From Cellulomonas cellasea (GTDB lineage: Bacteria; Actinomycetota; Actinomycetes; Actinomycetales; Cellulomonadaceae): a stretch of DNA of 53,499 nt. The stretch covers positions 1-53,499 of the forward strand of contig NZ_JAUDBQ010000020.1 of NCBI RefSeq assembly GCF_030372105.1, in the 5' to 3' direction. Both the position numbers and the translations under genes were made by a program. The notes beneath the pieces are model-generated. The model was not told the DNA's origin. It searched no databases and was given only the letters and a program-made list of their open reading frames with translations. This document shows positions 26,438-35,039 of the stretch, in pieces (the stretch's first letter is position 1; every line of letters begins with the position of its first letter).

Positions 26438-27217
26438 ATGCGCCTCGCGACCTTCAACATCCTGCATGGACGCTCCCCGACCGACGGCCGGGTGGACCTC
26501 GACCGCCTCAGGTCGGCTGTGCGCGCCCTCGACGCGGACGTCCTGGCGCTCCAGGAGGTCGACCGCGACCAGCCCCGATCCCACGGCGCCGACCTCACGG
26601 CGGTGGCCGCCGAGGCCATGGGCGCCGACGAGCACCGGTTCGTCGCGACGATGCACGGCGAGCCCGGGGTGTGGTCGGCGGCGACGGGCGACGAGCAACC
26701 CGCCGCGTCGAGTTACGGCATCGCGCTGCTCAGCCGCCTGCCGGTGCTGTCCTGGCAGGTTGTGGCGCTGCCCGCGCTGCGGGGGCGCGCGCCGGTGCAG
26801 TTCCCGGGCGCCCGGCTGCCCGCGCTGGTGCGGGACGAGGCCCGGGCCGCGGTGCTCGCGGCCGTCAGCACCCCGCAGGGCCCGCTGACGGTCGTCGCGA
26901 CGCACCTGACGTTCATCCCGGGCTGGAACGTGGTCCAGTTGCGCCGACTGGTGCGGGCGCTGCGCCGTCAGCCGCGTCCGCTCGTGCTGCTGGGCGACCT
27001 GAACCTCGACCCGCGGCGCGCGGCGCAGGCCTCGGGGATGCGCGCCTTGGCCCACGCGGCGACCTTCCCGTCGCAGTCACCGCAGCGGCAGCTCGACCAC
27101 ATCCTGGCCGACGGCCCGGTGGCCGCCGACGGCGCCGCGGCGTCGCTCGACCTGGGGCTGTCCGACCACCGCGCGCTGGCGGTGGACGTGCGCGTCAGTC
27201 CTGGTTCTCCACGGTGA
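26438..27217 (+). CDS. endonuclease/exonuclease/phosphatase family hydrolase
   Basis: A 259-residue cytoplasmic EEP-superfamily enzyme (phosphodiesterase or sphingomyelinase-like fold). Conserved residues: Asn in ATFNILHG, Glu in LALQEVDRD, Asp/Asn in LLGDLNLDP and the terminal SDHRALAVDV with the catalytic His. THLTF gives the additional His. ATG 26438 starts at the first strand. Its last 23 bases overlap the end of the convergent RsbW-like gene. The substrate is unknown. Confidence 0.88.
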   Translation: MRLATFNILHGRSPTDGRVDLDRLRSAVRALDADVLALQEVDRDQPRSHGADLTAVAAEAMGADEHRFVATMHGEPGVWSAATGDEQPAASSYGIALLSRLPVLSWQVVALPALRGRAPVQFPGARLPALVRDEARAAVLAAVSTPQGPLTVVATHLTFIPGWNVVQLRRLVRALRRQPRPLVLLGDLNLDPRRAAQASGMRALAHAATFPSQSPQRQLDHILADGPVAADGAAASLDLGLSDHRALAVDVRVSPGSPR

Positions 27218-27638
27218 ACCACACCGTCTTGCCGCCGTCGTCCAGTCGCTCGACGCCCCACGCGGAGGACAGCGTCGCCACCAGTGCCATGCCGCGCCCG
27301 TTCGGGTCGGTGGGCTGCGGGCGGCGCACCCGTGGGCGGGTCGGGCTCTCATCCGTGACCTCGACGCGGACCTCGTCCTGGTAGATCCGCACGTGCACGC
27401 GGATCTCCCCGTCGGACGGCCCGTGCAGCACGGCGTTCGCGACCAGCTCGCCGGCGAGCAGCTCCACGACCTGGTTCGACGCGCCGTGCACGCCCGCCGC
27501 CGCGACGGCCCGCATGATCCAGTGCCGGGCCGCTCGAGGCGCCGAGCGCTCGGCTCGAAGGACCAGCTCGCCGGTCTCGGCGAGGGCCTCCCTGCGCCGC
27601 ACGCTGCCGGCACTGCGTAGCTCTCGGACGTCGCCCAC
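27195..27638 (-). CDS. RsbW-like ATP-binding protein (HATPase)
   Basis: A 147-residue single-domain GHKL ATPase like anti-sigma kinases of the RsbW/SpoIIAB type. N box: ELLAGELVANAVLHG; G1: VEVTDESPTRP; G2: PNGRGMALVATL. It starts at GTG 27638. The partners (a sigma factor or anti-anti-sigma STAS protein) are not adjacent; such orphan ATPases are numerous in actinobacteria. The 3' end overlaps the convergent EEP gene by 23 bases. Confidence 0.87.
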   Translation of the reverse strand: MGDVRELRSAGSVRRREALAETGELVLRAERSAPRAARHWIMRAVAAAGVHGASNQVVELLAGELVANAVLHGPSDGEIRVHVRIYQDEVRVEVTDESPTRPRVRRPQPTDPNGRGMALVATLSSAWGVERLDDGGKTVWFTVENQD

Positions 27639-29685: not shown

Positions 29686-31302
29686 TCACCCGATGTCGAT
29701 GTCCTGCCGGTACACCGACGCCGGGTCGACGCCGAAGCGGTGCACGAGCTGGGCCACCACAGCGGCGGCATGCGCGTCGTCCGCCACCGCCTGCACGCGC
29801 AGCCGCTCGCGGAAGTCCACCCGCTGGTAACGCCCCCGGAAGGACTCGACCACCGGCGTCGCGGAGTACACGGCGGCCTCGGACAGCACGATCGACTCGG
29901 CGCCCGCGGCGAGGAGCGCGTCGCGCAGCTCGTCGACCCGGCCGGCGTCCACCAGCGCGGTGACGAGCTGGCGCCCGGCGCGCCGACGCCGCCGGCCGCT
30001 CGCCGCCACCACCGGCACTGGCCGCGGGTCGCCGGCGCCGTGTCCGGCGGACTCCATCTCGGAGGCGGCCACGCCGCTGAGCGCGTACGCCGCCGCGCCC
30101 TGCTGCGCGCGGTCCAGGTCGCCCTGCTCGTCGAGCGGGACCCGCAGGCCCACCGTCACGTTGACCAGTGCGGCGATCACCCAGCTCAGCACGAAGGAGA
30201 AGACGACCACGCTGACGATCGCGATCACCTGGTCGCCCAGCAGCGCGCCGCCTCCGCCGTTGAACAGCCCGTCCGCGCTGATCGGGTTGATCGCGCTGTC
30301 CGCGAAGAACCCGAGCAGGAACGAGCCGAGGATGCCGCCGGTGAAGTGCACGGCGATCACGTCGAGCGCGTCGTCGTAGCCGAGCCGGAACTTCACGCGC
30401 ACGGCGAGGTTGCACACCAGGCCGGCGATGACGCCGATGAGGATCGCCGCCCCGGTGCTCACGTAACCCGCGCAGGGCGTCACCGTCGCCAGGCCCGCCA
30501 CCGCGCCGGACGCCGCGCCGACGAGCGTCGAGTGCCCGCTGGTGAGCCGCTCGAGCAGCAGCCACGCGCACATCGCCCCGGCGGCCGCCACATGCGTGTT
30601 CATGAGCGCCTGCGCGGCGATCCCGTCAGCCTGCAGCCCATCCCCCGCGTTGAAGCCGAACCACCCGAACCACAGGATGCCCGCGCCCGCCAGCATCAGC
30701 GGCAGGTTGCTGGGCGATGACGAGACGTGCGGCCAGCCGCGCCGCCGGCCGACCACCAGCAGCACCGCGAGCGCCGCGGCCCCTGCCGACGCGTGCACCA
30801 CCATCCCGCCGGCCCAGTCCTGCGCGCCCATCGCCGTGAGCCAGCCTTTGGGGTGCCACAGCCACCGGGCGACCTGCGGGTACACGGCCAGCGACCACAG
30901 CGCGAGGAACACCACCCAGCCCAGCATCTTGAGCCGGCCGGCGGTGGCGCCCGTGAGCAACGCGGGTGTGATGACGGCGAACATCATCTGGTAGGCGACG
31001 AAGGCCAGCACGGGGATGGTGACGCCCGCGGCGACGGTGTGGAACTGCGGCTGCTCGACGTCCAGCAGCGCCGTCGCGTCGAAGGCCCCCAGGTACTTGG
31101 TGCCCTCGTTGCTGAAGGCCAGCGTGTACCCCAGCAGCACCCAGGTCAGCGAGATGACGCCCAGCGGCACGGTGTTCTGCAGCATCATCGCCAGCGTGTT
31201 GCGCGAGCGCGCCATGCCGCCGTAGAACATCGCCAGGCCCGGGGTCATGAACAGCACGAGGGCAGCGCACACCAGCACCCATGCGGTGTCTGCCTCGTTC
31301 AT
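29686..31302 (-). CDS. amt: ammonium channel (Amt) fused to a degenerate PII domain
   Basis: A 538-residue fusion. Residues ~1-410 are an Amt/Rh ammonium channel with eleven helices. The conserved Asp lies in AQDWAGG, the twin histidines in GGMVVHASAG and IAVHFTGG, and the Phe gate region in WFGWFGFNAGDG. After a linker with basic stretches (GRRRRRAGR), residues ~445-538 match GlnB/GlnK: QLVTALVDAGRVDELRDAL, then a T-loop-like segment ending FRGRYQRVDF (compare YRGAEYMVDF), then RLRVQAVADD. The B-loop GKIGDGK of true PII proteins is missing (HRFGVDPASVY instead) and so is the C-terminal tail. ATG 31302 has GGGGAGG. No separate glnK or glnD is in the window. Confidence 0.92.
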   Translation of the reverse strand: MNEADTAWVLVCAALVLFMTPGLAMFYGGMARSRNTLAMMLQNTVPLGVISLTWVLLGYTLAFSNEGTKYLGAFDATALLDVEQPQFHTVAAGVTIPVLAFVAYQMMFAVITPALLTGATAGRLKMLGWVVFLALWSLAVYPQVARWLWHPKGWLTAMGAQDWAGGMVVHASAGAAALAVLLVVGRRRGWPHVSSSPSNLPLMLAGAGILWFGWFGFNAGDGLQADGIAAQALMNTHVAAAGAMCAWLLLERLTSGHSTLVGAASGAVAGLATVTPCAGYVSTGAAILIGVIAGLVCNLAVRVKFRLGYDDALDVIAVHFTGGILGSFLLGFFADSAINPISADGLFNGGGGALLGDQVIAIVSVVVFSFVLSWVIAALVNVTVGLRVPLDEQGDLDRAQQGAAAYALSGVAASEMESAGHGAGDPRPVPVVAASGRRRRRAGRQLVTALVDAGRVDELRDALLAAGAESIVLSEAAVYSATPVVESFRGRYQRVDFRERLRVQAVADDAHAAAVVAQLVHRFGVDPASVYRQDIDIG

Positions 31303-31434
31303 GTCGCAGCCTCCCCGAGAGCGTGCCCCCGCCGCTCTGCTCGGGCCCCGGCGGCGGTCTCCCGCGCCTGCGCCCTCTGCTGCGAATGTAAACGAGTGGG
31401 ACATAGGCCGCGATTCGACCCGGCCCGGCCCGGG

Positions 31435-31725
31435 TCAGCGCACGGGCGTCCACCGCGGTCCGGCGCGACGGTCGAGCGTCGGGCGGATCGTGTGGCCGAG
31501 GCCGTCGACGGTGGCGACCACGTGCTGGCCCACCGCGAGCGCGTGCTCGTCGTCCGGGACGGTGAACCGCACGCTGATCCGCGCCTCGCCATGCGTGACT
31601 GCGAGGTCGGAGGCCTCGACCGTGGAGAGCTCGCGCGCGGCGGCGGCGGCCGTGGGCAGGACGCCGGCCGGGTCGACGCCAGGGCGCAGCAGTCCGACGC
31701 CGATCGAGACGCGGTAGGAGGGCAT
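31435..31725 (-). CDS. small hypothetical protein
   Basis: A 96-residue protein (MPSYRVSIGVGLLRPGV...) with a beta-alpha-beta pattern: SYRVSIGVG, an Ala-rich helix, then ARISVRFTVPDDEHALAVGQHVVATVDG. It is soluble, has no signal peptide and belongs to no family I recognise. ATG 31725. It lies between the ammonium channel and the small gene before the LAL regulator and has no obvious partner. Confidence 0.65.
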   Translation of the reverse strand: MPSYRVSIGVGLLRPGVDPAGVLPTAAAAARELSTVEASDLAVTHGEARISVRFTVPDDEHALAVGQHVVATVDGLGHTIRPTLDRRAGPRWTPVR

Positions 31726-31890: not shown

Positions 31891-32124
31891 ATGAACGACA
31901 TGTGGGGGCAGGGCTTGGAGGCCGAGCTGGCGTACCGGCGGGAGCGGATGCTCGCGGACCTGGTGGGCATCGGCGGGCGCCCGTGGGGCAGGGACGACGA
32001 GGGCGGCGTCATCGGGCGGAGGGTGGTCGAGGTGGGGCTGCTCGCCCGGGTCCGCCGTGCGGTCCGGCGGGCCGGGCGTGGGTGGGGCCTGACAAGATCG
32101 GGGACATGGGCCGCACCTCGATGA
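31891..32124 (+). CDS. small arginine-rich protein preceding the LAL regulator
   Basis: A 77-residue protein with an amphipathic N-terminus (MNDMWGQGLEAELAYRRERM) and a strongly basic C-terminus (ARVRRAVRRAGRGWG). AGGAG sits seven bases before ATG 31891, a good initiation signal. Its last 19 bases overlap the first ATG of the LuxR-type regulator, so it may serve as a leader that couples translation of the large gene. No family recognised. Confidence 0.65.
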   Translation: MNDMWGQGLEAELAYRRERMLADLVGIGGRPWGRDDEGGVIGRRVVEVGLLARVRRAVRRAGRGWGLTRSGTWAAPR

Positions 32125-35039
32125 CGACGCAGTTCGTGGCGCGGCATCAGCAGGTCGAGCAGATCGCCGCGGCACTGGCCCGGGCGGCCGAGGGGCGCCC
32201 GGGCGCGGTGCTGCTCGGGGCCGACGCGGGTGTGGGCAAGACCCGGCTGCTGCAGCGCAGCGCCGAGCTGGCGCAGCGGGCCGGCGCCACAGTCGTCACG
32301 GTGCACTGCGTGGACCTCGGCGAGATCGGGCTGCCGTACCTGCCCTTCGCGGAGGCCCTGTCGCAGCTCCGCGCCCTGCAGCCGGAGGCGGTGGGCGGGG
32401 CGCTGACGTCGCGCCCTGCCCTGGGGCGGCTGCTGTCGGCGGGCGCCCATGAGCTGCCCGCGGGCGAGGACCAGACCAGCCGGCTGCAGCTCTTCGACGG
32501 GCTGACCGAGGTGCTGGGCGCCGTGGGCCGCGCGGGCGCGCCGCTGCTGCTGGTCATCGAGGACCTGCACTGGGCCGACCCGTCGAGCCGGGACGTGCTG
32601 CGGTTCCTGCTCGCGCGGCTGCGGCAGGAGCATCTGCTGGTCGTCGCGAGCTACCGCGCCGACGATCTGCACCGCCGCCACCCGCTGCGGCCGATGCTCG
32701 CTGAGCTGACCCGGCACCCCCGCGTCGAGCGCATCGACCTGCCCGCGTTCACCGTCGACGAGCTCCGCGAGTTCGCCACCGCGACCCTCGGCCGCGCGCT
32801 GCCCGAGGCCGAGCTGCGCCGGGTGAGCGAGCGATCCGAGGGGAACGCGTTCTTCGCCGAAGAGCTGCTGGAGACGACGGCGGCGGACGACGACTCCCTG
32901 CCGTGGACGCTGCGCGACGTGCTGCGCAGCCGGCTCGAGCAGCAGGACCCGGCGGTGCAGCGGCTCGCCCAGGTCGCCTCGGTGGCCGGGAGGCGCGTCG
33001 ACGAGCCGTTGCTGCGCGCCGTGGCCCAGGAGGCGGCGGGCGCCGAGCTCGACGCCGCGCACGGCTTCGACGCCGTGCTGCGCGAGGCCGTGGCCCATCA
33101 CGTGCTGCAGGGCGAGGACCAGCGGATCGCGTTCCGGCACGCGCTGCTGGCGGAGGCCGTCTACGCGGACCTGCTGCCGGGCGACCAGGTCGCGCTGCAC
33201 CGCGCCTACCTGCGCGCGATGGAGGCCGACCCGACGCTCGGCCTACCGTCCCAGGTGGCGGTGCACGCCATGCGCGCCCACGACCTGCCGACGGCGCTGC
33301 GGGCCTCCCACGCGGCCGCCCGTGCGGCGGCCCAGGTGCTGGCCCACGTCGAGGAGCTGCGCCAGCGCGAGACGGTGCTCGAGTTGTGGGACGCGGTGCC
33401 CGGAGCCGCCGCGTTGGTGGGGGCGGACCTCGTGGACGTGCTGCTGGCGGCATCCAGGGCCGCGAGCCGGTGCGGCGAGCTCGAGCGCGCCATCGCACTG
33501 GCGGCGAGGGCGGTCGAGGCCGCGACGGGCGACGTCACCCGCCAGGCGCAGGTCCGCACACTGCTGGCCCGGCGCCTGCTCGCCGACGACCGGGTGCGCG
33601 ACGCGCACACCGAGGCCGGGCTGGCGTTGGCCGCCCTGGCCGAGGCCCCCAGCCCGGAGGCGCTGCCCTGGGCGTTGGCGACCCACGCCCGCGCGGCGAT
33701 GAACCTCGACCTGGACGAGGAGGCCGAGCGCAGCGCGGAGTCGGCCGTGGCCAGCGCCCGGGCAGTCGGCAACGCCGGCGCGGAGGCCGACGCCCTCACC
33801 ACCCTGGCGGTGCTCGTCGTGGACGACCCGGAGCGCGCCGCCGCGCTGCTGACCGAGTCCGCGGCGCGCGCTCGGCAGGCGGGCGATCTCGCCACCGAGC
33901 TGCGCACGCTCCACAACCTGGCGACCACGCACTACTACGCGGGGCAGCTCGCCCAGTCCCACGCGATCGCCACACAGGCGACGGCGCAGGCCCGCGACGC
34001 CGGGCTGGCGTTGAGCGTCGGCGGGGTCACGGTGTGGGCGTTCTCGGAGATCGTGCGGTACGCGCTGGGCGACCTGAGCCCCGCTCCGCAGGACCACCCA
34101 CCGGCGCCGGCGTCGATGGCGCCGCTCTTCGCGGCCATCGAGCTCTACTCGGCGGTGGCGCGCGGCGACGCGGACGTGATCGAGCGCGGCCAGGCGATGC
34201 GGTCCTCCTGGGACCGTGACGGGCAGCTCGCGCTCATCGCCGGGGGCTGCACCATCGAGGCCCTGGCCTGGGCCGGCCGGGGGGACGAGGCCGTCGACCT
34301 GGCGCTCGAGCTCATCGACCACCTGGGCCGCACCTGGAGCGACAACTTCCTGGGCGGCATCCGGCTCGCGGCGCTGGCCCTGGGCGCCCTCGCGGACGGC
34401 GCCGAACGGGACCGCCACGCGGGCGCCGACCCGGCCGCACGCCTCGCGCTGGGCTCCGAGCTCATCGAGCGCGCCCGGGCCGCCGCCGAGCGCGGGCGCC
34501 CGAGGGGCGGACGGCTCGGGCCCGAGGGCAAAGCCTGGCTGGCGCGCGCCGAGGCGGAGCGCGCACGGCTCGACGGCGCCGCCGACCCGGCCCGCTGGCA
34601 GGCCGCCACCGAGGCGTTCGCCTACGGCCACCACTACGACGGCGCGTGCACGCGGGCCCGCTGGGCCGAGGCGCTGCTGGCGTCCGGCGACCGCCTCGGG
34701 GCGTCACGGGAGGCCGCCCGCGCACTCCTCGACGCGCAGCAGATGGGCGCCGAGCCACTGCGGGCCTGGGTCGCCGCGCTGGCCCGGCGCGGCCGCCTCG
34801 ACGTGCCCGGCGTCCGCGCGCCAGCGGTCGACCTGCTGACGGCCCGCGAGGCGGAGGTGCTGGCCCTCGTGGCCGACGGGCTCAGCAACCGGCAGATCGG
34901 CGAGCGCCTGTTCATCAGCGGCAAGACGGTGAGCGTGCACGTGTCGAACCTGCTGGCCAAGCTCGGGGCGTCGGGCCGCGCGGAGGCCGTCGACGTCGCG
35001 CACCGACGCGGGCTCATAGGGGCGCGGGTCGAAGGCTGA
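32106..35039 (+). CDS. large LuxR-family ATP-binding regulator (LAL/MalT type)
   Basis: A 977-residue transcriptional regulator. The N-terminal AAA/STAND ATPase has Walker A GADAGVGKTRLL and Walker B LLLVIEDLHWAD. A long middle region (residues ~330-900) of TPR-like helical repeats would sense a ligand or partner. The C-terminal LuxR helix-turn-helix is LTAREAEVLALVADGLSNRQIG, then SGKTVSVHVSNLLAKLG. ATG 32106 and ATG 32121 are both possible. Targets are unknown; adjacent genes (a MetE-like enzyme downstream) are candidates only by proximity. Confidence 0.93.
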   Translation: MGRTSMTTQFVARHQQVEQIAAALARAAEGRPGAVLLGADAGVGKTRLLQRSAELAQRAGATVVTVHCVDLGEIGLPYLPFAEALSQLRALQPEAVGGALTSRPALGRLLSAGAHELPAGEDQTSRLQLFDGLTEVLGAVGRAGAPLLLVIEDLHWADPSSRDVLRFLLARLRQEHLLVVASYRADDLHRRHPLRPMLAELTRHPRVERIDLPAFTVDELREFATATLGRALPEAELRRVSERSEGNAFFAEELLETTAADDDSLPWTLRDVLRSRLEQQDPAVQRLAQVASVAGRRVDEPLLRAVAQEAAGAELDAAHGFDAVLREAVAHHVLQGEDQRIAFRHALLAEAVYADLLPGDQVALHRAYLRAMEADPTLGLPSQVAVHAMRAHDLPTALRASHAAARAAAQVLAHVEELRQRETVLELWDAVPGAAALVGADLVDVLLAASRAASRCGELERAIALAARAVEAATGDVTRQAQVRTLLARRLLADDRVRDAHTEAGLALAALAEAPSPEALPWALATHARAAMNLDLDEEAERSAESAVASARAVGNAGAEADALTTLAVLVVDDPERAAALLTESAARARQAGDLATELRTLHNLATTHYYAGQLAQSHAIATQATAQARDAGLALSVGGVTVWAFSEIVRYALGDLSPAPQDHPPAPASMAPLFAAIELYSAVARGDADVIERGQAMRSSWDRDGQLALIAGGCTIEALAWAGRGDEAVDLALELIDHLGRTWSDNFLGGIRLAALALGALADGAERDRHAGADPAARLALGSELIERARAAAERGRPRGGRLGPEGKAWLARAEAERARLDGAADPARWQAATEAFAYGHHYDGACTRARWAEALLASGDRLGASREAARALLDAQQMGAEPLRAWVAALARRGRLDVPGVRAPAVDLLTAREAEVLALVADGLSNRQIGERLFISGKTVSVHVSNLLAKLGASGRAEAVDVAHRRGLIGARVEG

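Follow-up and report, generated by a model that had tools for sequence, protein, structure and literature searches.

An ammonium channel of Cellulomonas cellasea with a fused PII-like tail that retains the T-loop and apparently lacks the classical ligand site

Cellulomonas cellasea encodes an ammonium channel and a PII-like domain in one chain. The window analyzed here is a 53,499-nucleotide stretch of its genome (contig NZ_JAUDBQ010000020.1), in which a single open reading frame (29686–31302, minus strand) gives a 538-amino acid protein composed of an Amt channel (residues 7–406), a linker, and a PII-homologous tail (residues 445–538). The original prediction, made from the DNA alone, held that the tail is a tethered, nucleotide-blind PII that would act as a built-in plug or docking site with a different trigger. 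Sequence comparison supports the first part of this, a tethered PII homologue whose T-loop is retained and whose nucleotide and 2-oxoglutarate site is lost. The parts of PII that read the energy and nitrogen state of the cell appear to be lost, but the T-loop and the residue known to enter the pore are kept; a plug or docking arm that belongs to the channel itself and answers another signal is therefore probable. The protein unites known parts and a known partnership in one chain, from which the sensor appears to have been removed. A survey of Amt proteins, suggested along with the prediction, found that the tail recurs: intact fused genes occur in 35 genomes from three genera, namely the window's own genus and two labeled here g75 and g23.

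The features of the gene, with the evidence for each, are these:

29686–31302, minus strand: whole gene, 538 amino acids plus stop, encoding Amt, linker, and PII-like tail (open reading frame; domain profiles)
31310–31316, minus strand: GGGGAGG, Shine-Dalgarno-like, 7 nt 5' of the ATG (read off the sequence)
30085–31284, minus strand: Amt channel domain, residues 7–406 (PF00909, 351 bits; AmtB alignment)
30082–30120, minus strand: Amt C-terminal region, residues 395–407, in which HxE has become QxA (Q401, A403) (row comparison)
29971–30081, minus strand: linker, residues 408–444, fast-evolving (linker lengths; dN/dS)
29689–29970, minus strand: PII-like tail, residues 445–538, 94 residues (profile, profile–profile, alignment, model, Foldseek)
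29812–29865, minus strand: T-loop, residues 480–497, equivalent to canonical 37–55 less one (alignment)
29836–29838, minus strand: codon of R489, equivalent to canonical Arg47 (23/23 distinct tails; 28/28 fused loci)
29716–29739, minus strand: short turn, residues 522–529, at the expected place of the B-loop (alignment)

The start codon is an ATG at 31302 (minus strand), and the stop codon lies at 29686–29688. Across 25 fused loci the linker is 28–47 amino acids in length, being longer in one further g75 genome (G430). Just ahead of the Amt gene, and likewise on the minus strand, is a 96-amino acid open reading frame (31438–31725) with 86% identity in two other loci of the own genus; a Pfam scan of it gave nothing above cut-off. 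This frame may be a small gene, possibly co-transcribed, and conserved shadow frames are also common in such GC-rich DNA. The region is flanked by an AAA_16/LuxR-type regulator (31902–35036, plus strand) and a HATPase_c_2 protein (27198–27638, minus strand). The open reading frames neighboring the fused gene are common to the three loci of the own genus. Beyond the own genus there is no shared partner gene, the seven g75 and g23 loci having just the Amt gene in common with the window at the threshold used.

Relationship of the tail to PII proteins

The tail scores above no curated cut-off in Pfam or NCBIfam. The PII profile PF00543 matched residues 445–523 with 12.7 bits in the whole chain and 17.9 bits when the tail was searched alone (cut-off 25). 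Since both collections miss the tail at their cut-offs, database entries for fused genes probably name an ammonium transporter and nothing more. Among 16 fused tails, 10 matched PF00543 at E ≤ 1 (best 5.8e-4). HisG_C and PrmA were considered as the tail's family and set aside as weaker, matching 7/16 and 5/16 tails, respectively.

Searches of the PDB gave clearer answers. A single-sequence phmmer search with the tail returned PII proteins (best E 3.2e-5), and a profile made from the 16 fused tails returned PII structures (best E 1.9e-10); among the 35 PDB sequences that this profile matched at E ≤ 1, 34 go by the name of PII, GlnK, or PII-like, the remaining one being called only "Signaling protein". 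Profile–profile comparison of 23 tails with 45 canonical PIIs gave a probability of 97.5% and a score of 66.2, the highest score among 100 column shuffles being 20.2, and the likeness is therefore beyond chance; the 16-tail profile matches in the PDB, together with the shuffle controls, rule out a chance resemblance. All three approaches give PII for the region (residues ~445–538) that had been predicted to be GlnB/GlnK-like, and no profile search came back with the answer that the tail is not PII-like. On these sequence grounds we consider the tail to be homologous to PII. The four tails from g23 (G298, G955, G956, and G028) match the fused-tail profile at E 3.6e-24 to 2.6e-31, two of them having helped to build it. 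They have no match to the canonical PII profile at E 0.01, and their PII identity therefore rests on a chain through the other tails.

With one canonical PII included in the alignment, the tail was modeled at a pLDDT of 83 and a pTM of 0.72, with lower confidence in the T-loop. In this model, strands and helices follow one another as in PII (ferredoxin-like, β-α-β-β-α-β), an outcome that the PII in the alignment helps. In a Foldseek search with the PII-aided model, the best 40 matches were PII or GlnK chains (TM-scores ~0.57–0.68). When modeled with just its near-copy and no canonical PII, the tail had a pLDDT of 60, and the PII fold was not recovered.

Ligand-binding residues and the T-loop

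The nucleotide-binding B-loop, GKIGDGK, had been predicted to be replaced in the tail, and the alignment has a short turn there (residues 522–529). No intact B-loop lies elsewhere in the chain: GDGK is absent from all 538 residues, and the sole GDG starts at residue 220, inside an Amt pore motif. The alignment also agrees that the C-terminal part of PII is missing, as the C-loop is absent. The T-loop is near full length, being one residue shorter than the canonical loop in 22/23 tails, and the model suggests a fourth strand right after helix 2. The PII core thus looks complete, and the missing parts appear to be the ligand-binding loops.

We compared 23 distinct fused tails, selected by locus and not by R47, with 86 canonical PIIs from the fetched loci at the 37 positions that are at least 95% conserved among the latter. 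These 86 sequences were found with a profile from the set of 45 canonical PIIs, itself chosen by a pattern requiring A6, P10, R47, G48, and GDG, so the canonical side of the comparison is partly dependent on that pattern. L20, G24, and R47 alone of the 37 positions survive in 23/23 tails; A6 is likewise retained in all fused tails. Absent from every tail (0/23) are P10, V16, G27, T29, G35, G37, R38, Q39, G41, Y46, A49, Y51, P57, K58, T83, I86, G87, D88, G89, R103, T104, and E106. Substitution is uniform or nearly so at two of these, Y46 being Phe in 23/23 tails and K58 being Arg in 22/23. Two T-loop residues are partly retained (E44 in 16/23 tails and G48 in 9/23). K90 matches in 13/23 tails and R101 in 21/23, both beside large gaps where the alignment is doubtful. 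Nucleotide and 2-oxoglutarate ligands in PII include T29, Q39, K58, G87, D88, K90, R101, and R103 (among those given in the accessible text of PMC8395244). From the sequence, loss of control by ATP, ADP, and 2-oxoglutarate is well supported for the tail. Modification at Tyr51 is excluded, as this residue is lost in 23/23 tails.

As aligned, Arg47 (R489 in the window) is the one canonical T-loop residue common to every tail examined. It is present in all 28 fused loci examined by residue (25 plus 3), a reading that covers 21 of the 29 g75 genomes.

PII-like proteins with other ligands, such as PstA with c-di-AMP, resemble the tail, whose fold is probably that of PII, in that the classical ligand site is altered. 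Those of the PstA type are free proteins, whereas the tail is joined to a channel and has no known ligand.

The channel and its possible gating

The channel part is a clear member of its family (PF00909, 351.4 bits, cut-off 23.2, residues 7–406; TIGR00836, 389.8 bits, cut-off 343.3). AmtB residues F107, W148, D160, H168, F215, and H318 are retained as F108, W149, D162, H170, F217, and H319, with the twin histidines (H170 and H319) and the Phe gate (F108 and F217) at the aligned pore places. We compared 24 fused Amt rows with 96 unfused ones, the fused rows being recognized by a tail pattern that includes FR, in agreement with the ORF-wide scan for downstream PII described below. The C-terminal HxE motif is lost in 24/24 fused rows (H to Q; E to A, S, or Q), whereas 92 of the unfused rows have H and 93 have E. 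At the place of AmtB S219, 23/24 fused rows have Asp and 95/96 unfused rows have Ser (D221 in the window, 30640–30642); at that of F103, 23/24 fused rows have Tyr and 83/96 unfused rows have Phe (Y104 in the window, 30991–30993). With these substitutions, ammonium recognition may differ in the fused Amts. In AmtB, S219 and F103 belong to the outer ammonium site.

PII control of Amt channels has been described as metabolite-gated and in trans. The AmtB–GlnK system, like the fused protein, pairs an Amt channel with a PII whose T-loop bears Arg47. However, AmtB and GlnK are separate proteins, often from adjacent genes, whereas the fused protein is one chain, is without the B-loop, the C-loop, and the nucleotide and 2-oxoglutarate residues, and has a changed HxE in the Amt C-terminal region. 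Pfam lists some Ammonium_transp plus P-II architectures; in the open-licence literature searched, none of the titles or abstract openings returned tells of a natural fusion of Amt to PII or GlnK. Besides the fused gene, which is an extra, accessory Amt channel, the window's genome carries a canonical amtB and, adjacent to it, a canonical glnK whose T-loop, Tyr51, and B-loop are intact.

Our main reading, which we give a probability of roughly 0.4, is that the tethered T-loop domain docks on its own channel and probably limits it, uncoupled from nucleotide and 2-oxoglutarate sensing. With Amt presumably a trimer, three tails would hang on flexible tethers below three pores. The tails could associate and bring their T-loops to the pores of their own trimer at the cytoplasmic exit, where Arg47 would enter or cap the pore as in the E. 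coli GlnK–AmtB complex, and the channel would be partly or conditionally closed in cis. In E. coli, the tip of the T-loop enters the pore exit of AmtB and Arg47 blocks conduction (as described in the accessible text of PMC4274968 and PMC6243067). The E. coli GlnK variant R47A still associates with AmtB, both in vitro and in vivo (PMC4274968, same portion), so Arg47 says little on docking itself. Speaking against a plug in cis, most T-loop residues other than Arg47 have diverged among the 23 tails. Because there appears to be no nucleotide or 2-oxoglutarate site, closure could not depend on what free GlnK senses; it would have to be set by the conformation or ammonium load of Amt, by the state of the membrane or the pH, or by a partner drawing the tail off the channel. 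The cell's free GlnK would then act chiefly within the separate amtB-glnK pair. A more specific form, in which an Arg47-tipped ball-and-chain gate is set by the ammonium-driven conformation of the channel and not by cytosolic ATP, ADP, or 2-oxoglutarate, so that a PII sensor has turned into a mechanical gate, strikes us as doubtful. If a tethered T-loop does limit its channel, evolution would have split T-loop plugging from ligand sensing within a single gene across three genera. With the fused gene one could ask whether a T-loop bearing Arg47 suffices for gating an Amt, and which other inputs can drive the gate.

It is unlikely, though the strongest competitor to docking in cis, that the Amt part instead mainly senses ammonium and that the tail serves for output, either by recruiting a partner protein through its T-loop or by forming mixed trimers with free GlnK, much as Amt-histidine kinase fusions signal. 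Amt fusions to signaling domains, including ones that sense rather than transport, are already known from Ks-Amt5 (the accessible text of PMC5764959). Fusions of this type likewise have an Amt with a cytoplasmic C-terminal signaling domain on a flexible connector; theirs is a kinase with phosphorylation as output, whereas here there is a PII-like domain without known output, and a Pfam scan found no histidine kinase in the fused chain. The Asp and Tyr substitutions, through a possible difference in ammonium recognition, and the availability of the canonical amtB-glnK pair for uptake would also suit a sensor. However, the twin-His and Phe-gate positions are retained in the window's Amt, no partner gene is common to the three genera, and the chain contains no known output domain.

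The loss of HxE bears on another alternative. E. coli AmtB loses its association with GlnK upon changes in its C-terminal region (from the accessible text of PMC3831643), and in mycobacteria PII binds the C-terminal region of Amt (likewise for PMC11001197). The loss suggests that free GlnK no longer binds the fused channel; an equally good reading is that PII domains do not dock at this place at all, which counts against docking in cis. We regard as improbable that the tail is a shield, sitting over the cytoplasmic side of the channel without obstructing it and denying access to free GlnK, which would leave the channel open when the canonical pair is shut. Free PII is indeed at hand, being encoded in the genome of the window and in 29/29 g75 genomes (in the latter above the Pfam cut-off), and every fused row lacks the Amt motif to which GlnK binding is linked. 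However, if this loss already stops GlnK from binding, such a cover is needless, and the retention of the pore-entering Arg47 is left unexplained.

Distribution, origin, and selection

The fused gene is intact in 3/7 genomes of the own genus, including that of Cellulomonas timonensis (L036). All 29 genomes of g75, which belongs to another family, have the fusion; in G430 it consists of two pieces lying in a single open frame. In g23 it is intact in three genomes; in a fourth (G028; loci L040 and L144), the Amt part is split over two reading frames and the tail is open, reflecting either a sequencing error or a broken gene. Six candidates were scored per genome in a survey of the own family (221 genomes), in which seven genomes were above threshold, three plus three of them fused and one unfused. 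Three candidates were scored per genome in each of the remaining surveys: in a second family (395 sampled genomes), only the 29 of g75 were above threshold; in the order (396 sampled genomes), five fused cases topped the matches; and in the phylum (396 sampled genomes), the window was the sole fusion among the matches listed. A scan of 156 Amt ORFs from 148 of 150 loci found a PII-like match downstream in the same ORF in 44, all from genomes already counted as fused, some of which are covered by several loci. No other Amt ORF among the 156 has at least 90 residues past the Amt match.

A quick tree built from 120 Amt rows puts the 24 fused ones together on one side of a branch (SH-aLRT 99). A single fusion event is the simplest reading of this, and the fusion is apparently of one origin. 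Adjoining the fused clade on a long branch is an unfused Amt (L067, from G096) without the His of the C-terminal HxE; its locus has no PII-like match.

Because 35 genomes share the open frame, an artefact of frame or assembly is ruled out. An amt that would need readthrough to reach a separate glnK is the situation in the other relatives checked, which have different frames or internal stops, and not in the fused set. Of the other possible fusions, those in G001, G005, G019, and G049 proved to have separate PII ORFs, and the fused tail is absent from G016 and G008. Searches of plasmid records gave no match to the tail; the whole chain matched 122 records, in none of which a single place covered 80% of the chain.

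The tail is under purifying selection, as measured by dN/dS (Nei-Gojobori). For the three pairs within the own genus, dN/dS was 0.14–0.19 in the tail, 0.09–0.12 in Amt, and 0.25–0.35 in the linker. Median values for g75 (20 sequences, 190 pairs, of which 177–189 were usable, 188 for the tail) were 0.19, 0.09, and 0.41, respectively. A single, weaker g23 pair (L066/L040), one member of which is frame-broken, gave 0.100/0.278 (~0.36) for the tail and 0.281/0.438 for the linker; its Amt value is unusable, as the pair crosses the frame break in that part. That the tail is a PII remnant, decaying slowly or aiding only folding or trimer stability, is the least probable of the readings, for although most canonical functional residues are gone, the Amt part of G028 is split, and the g23 pair has the higher tail value, this sits poorly with the low tail dN/dS in g75 and the own genus, with the presence of the fused gene throughout g75, and with the keeping of R47, an exposed loop residue, at every locus examined.
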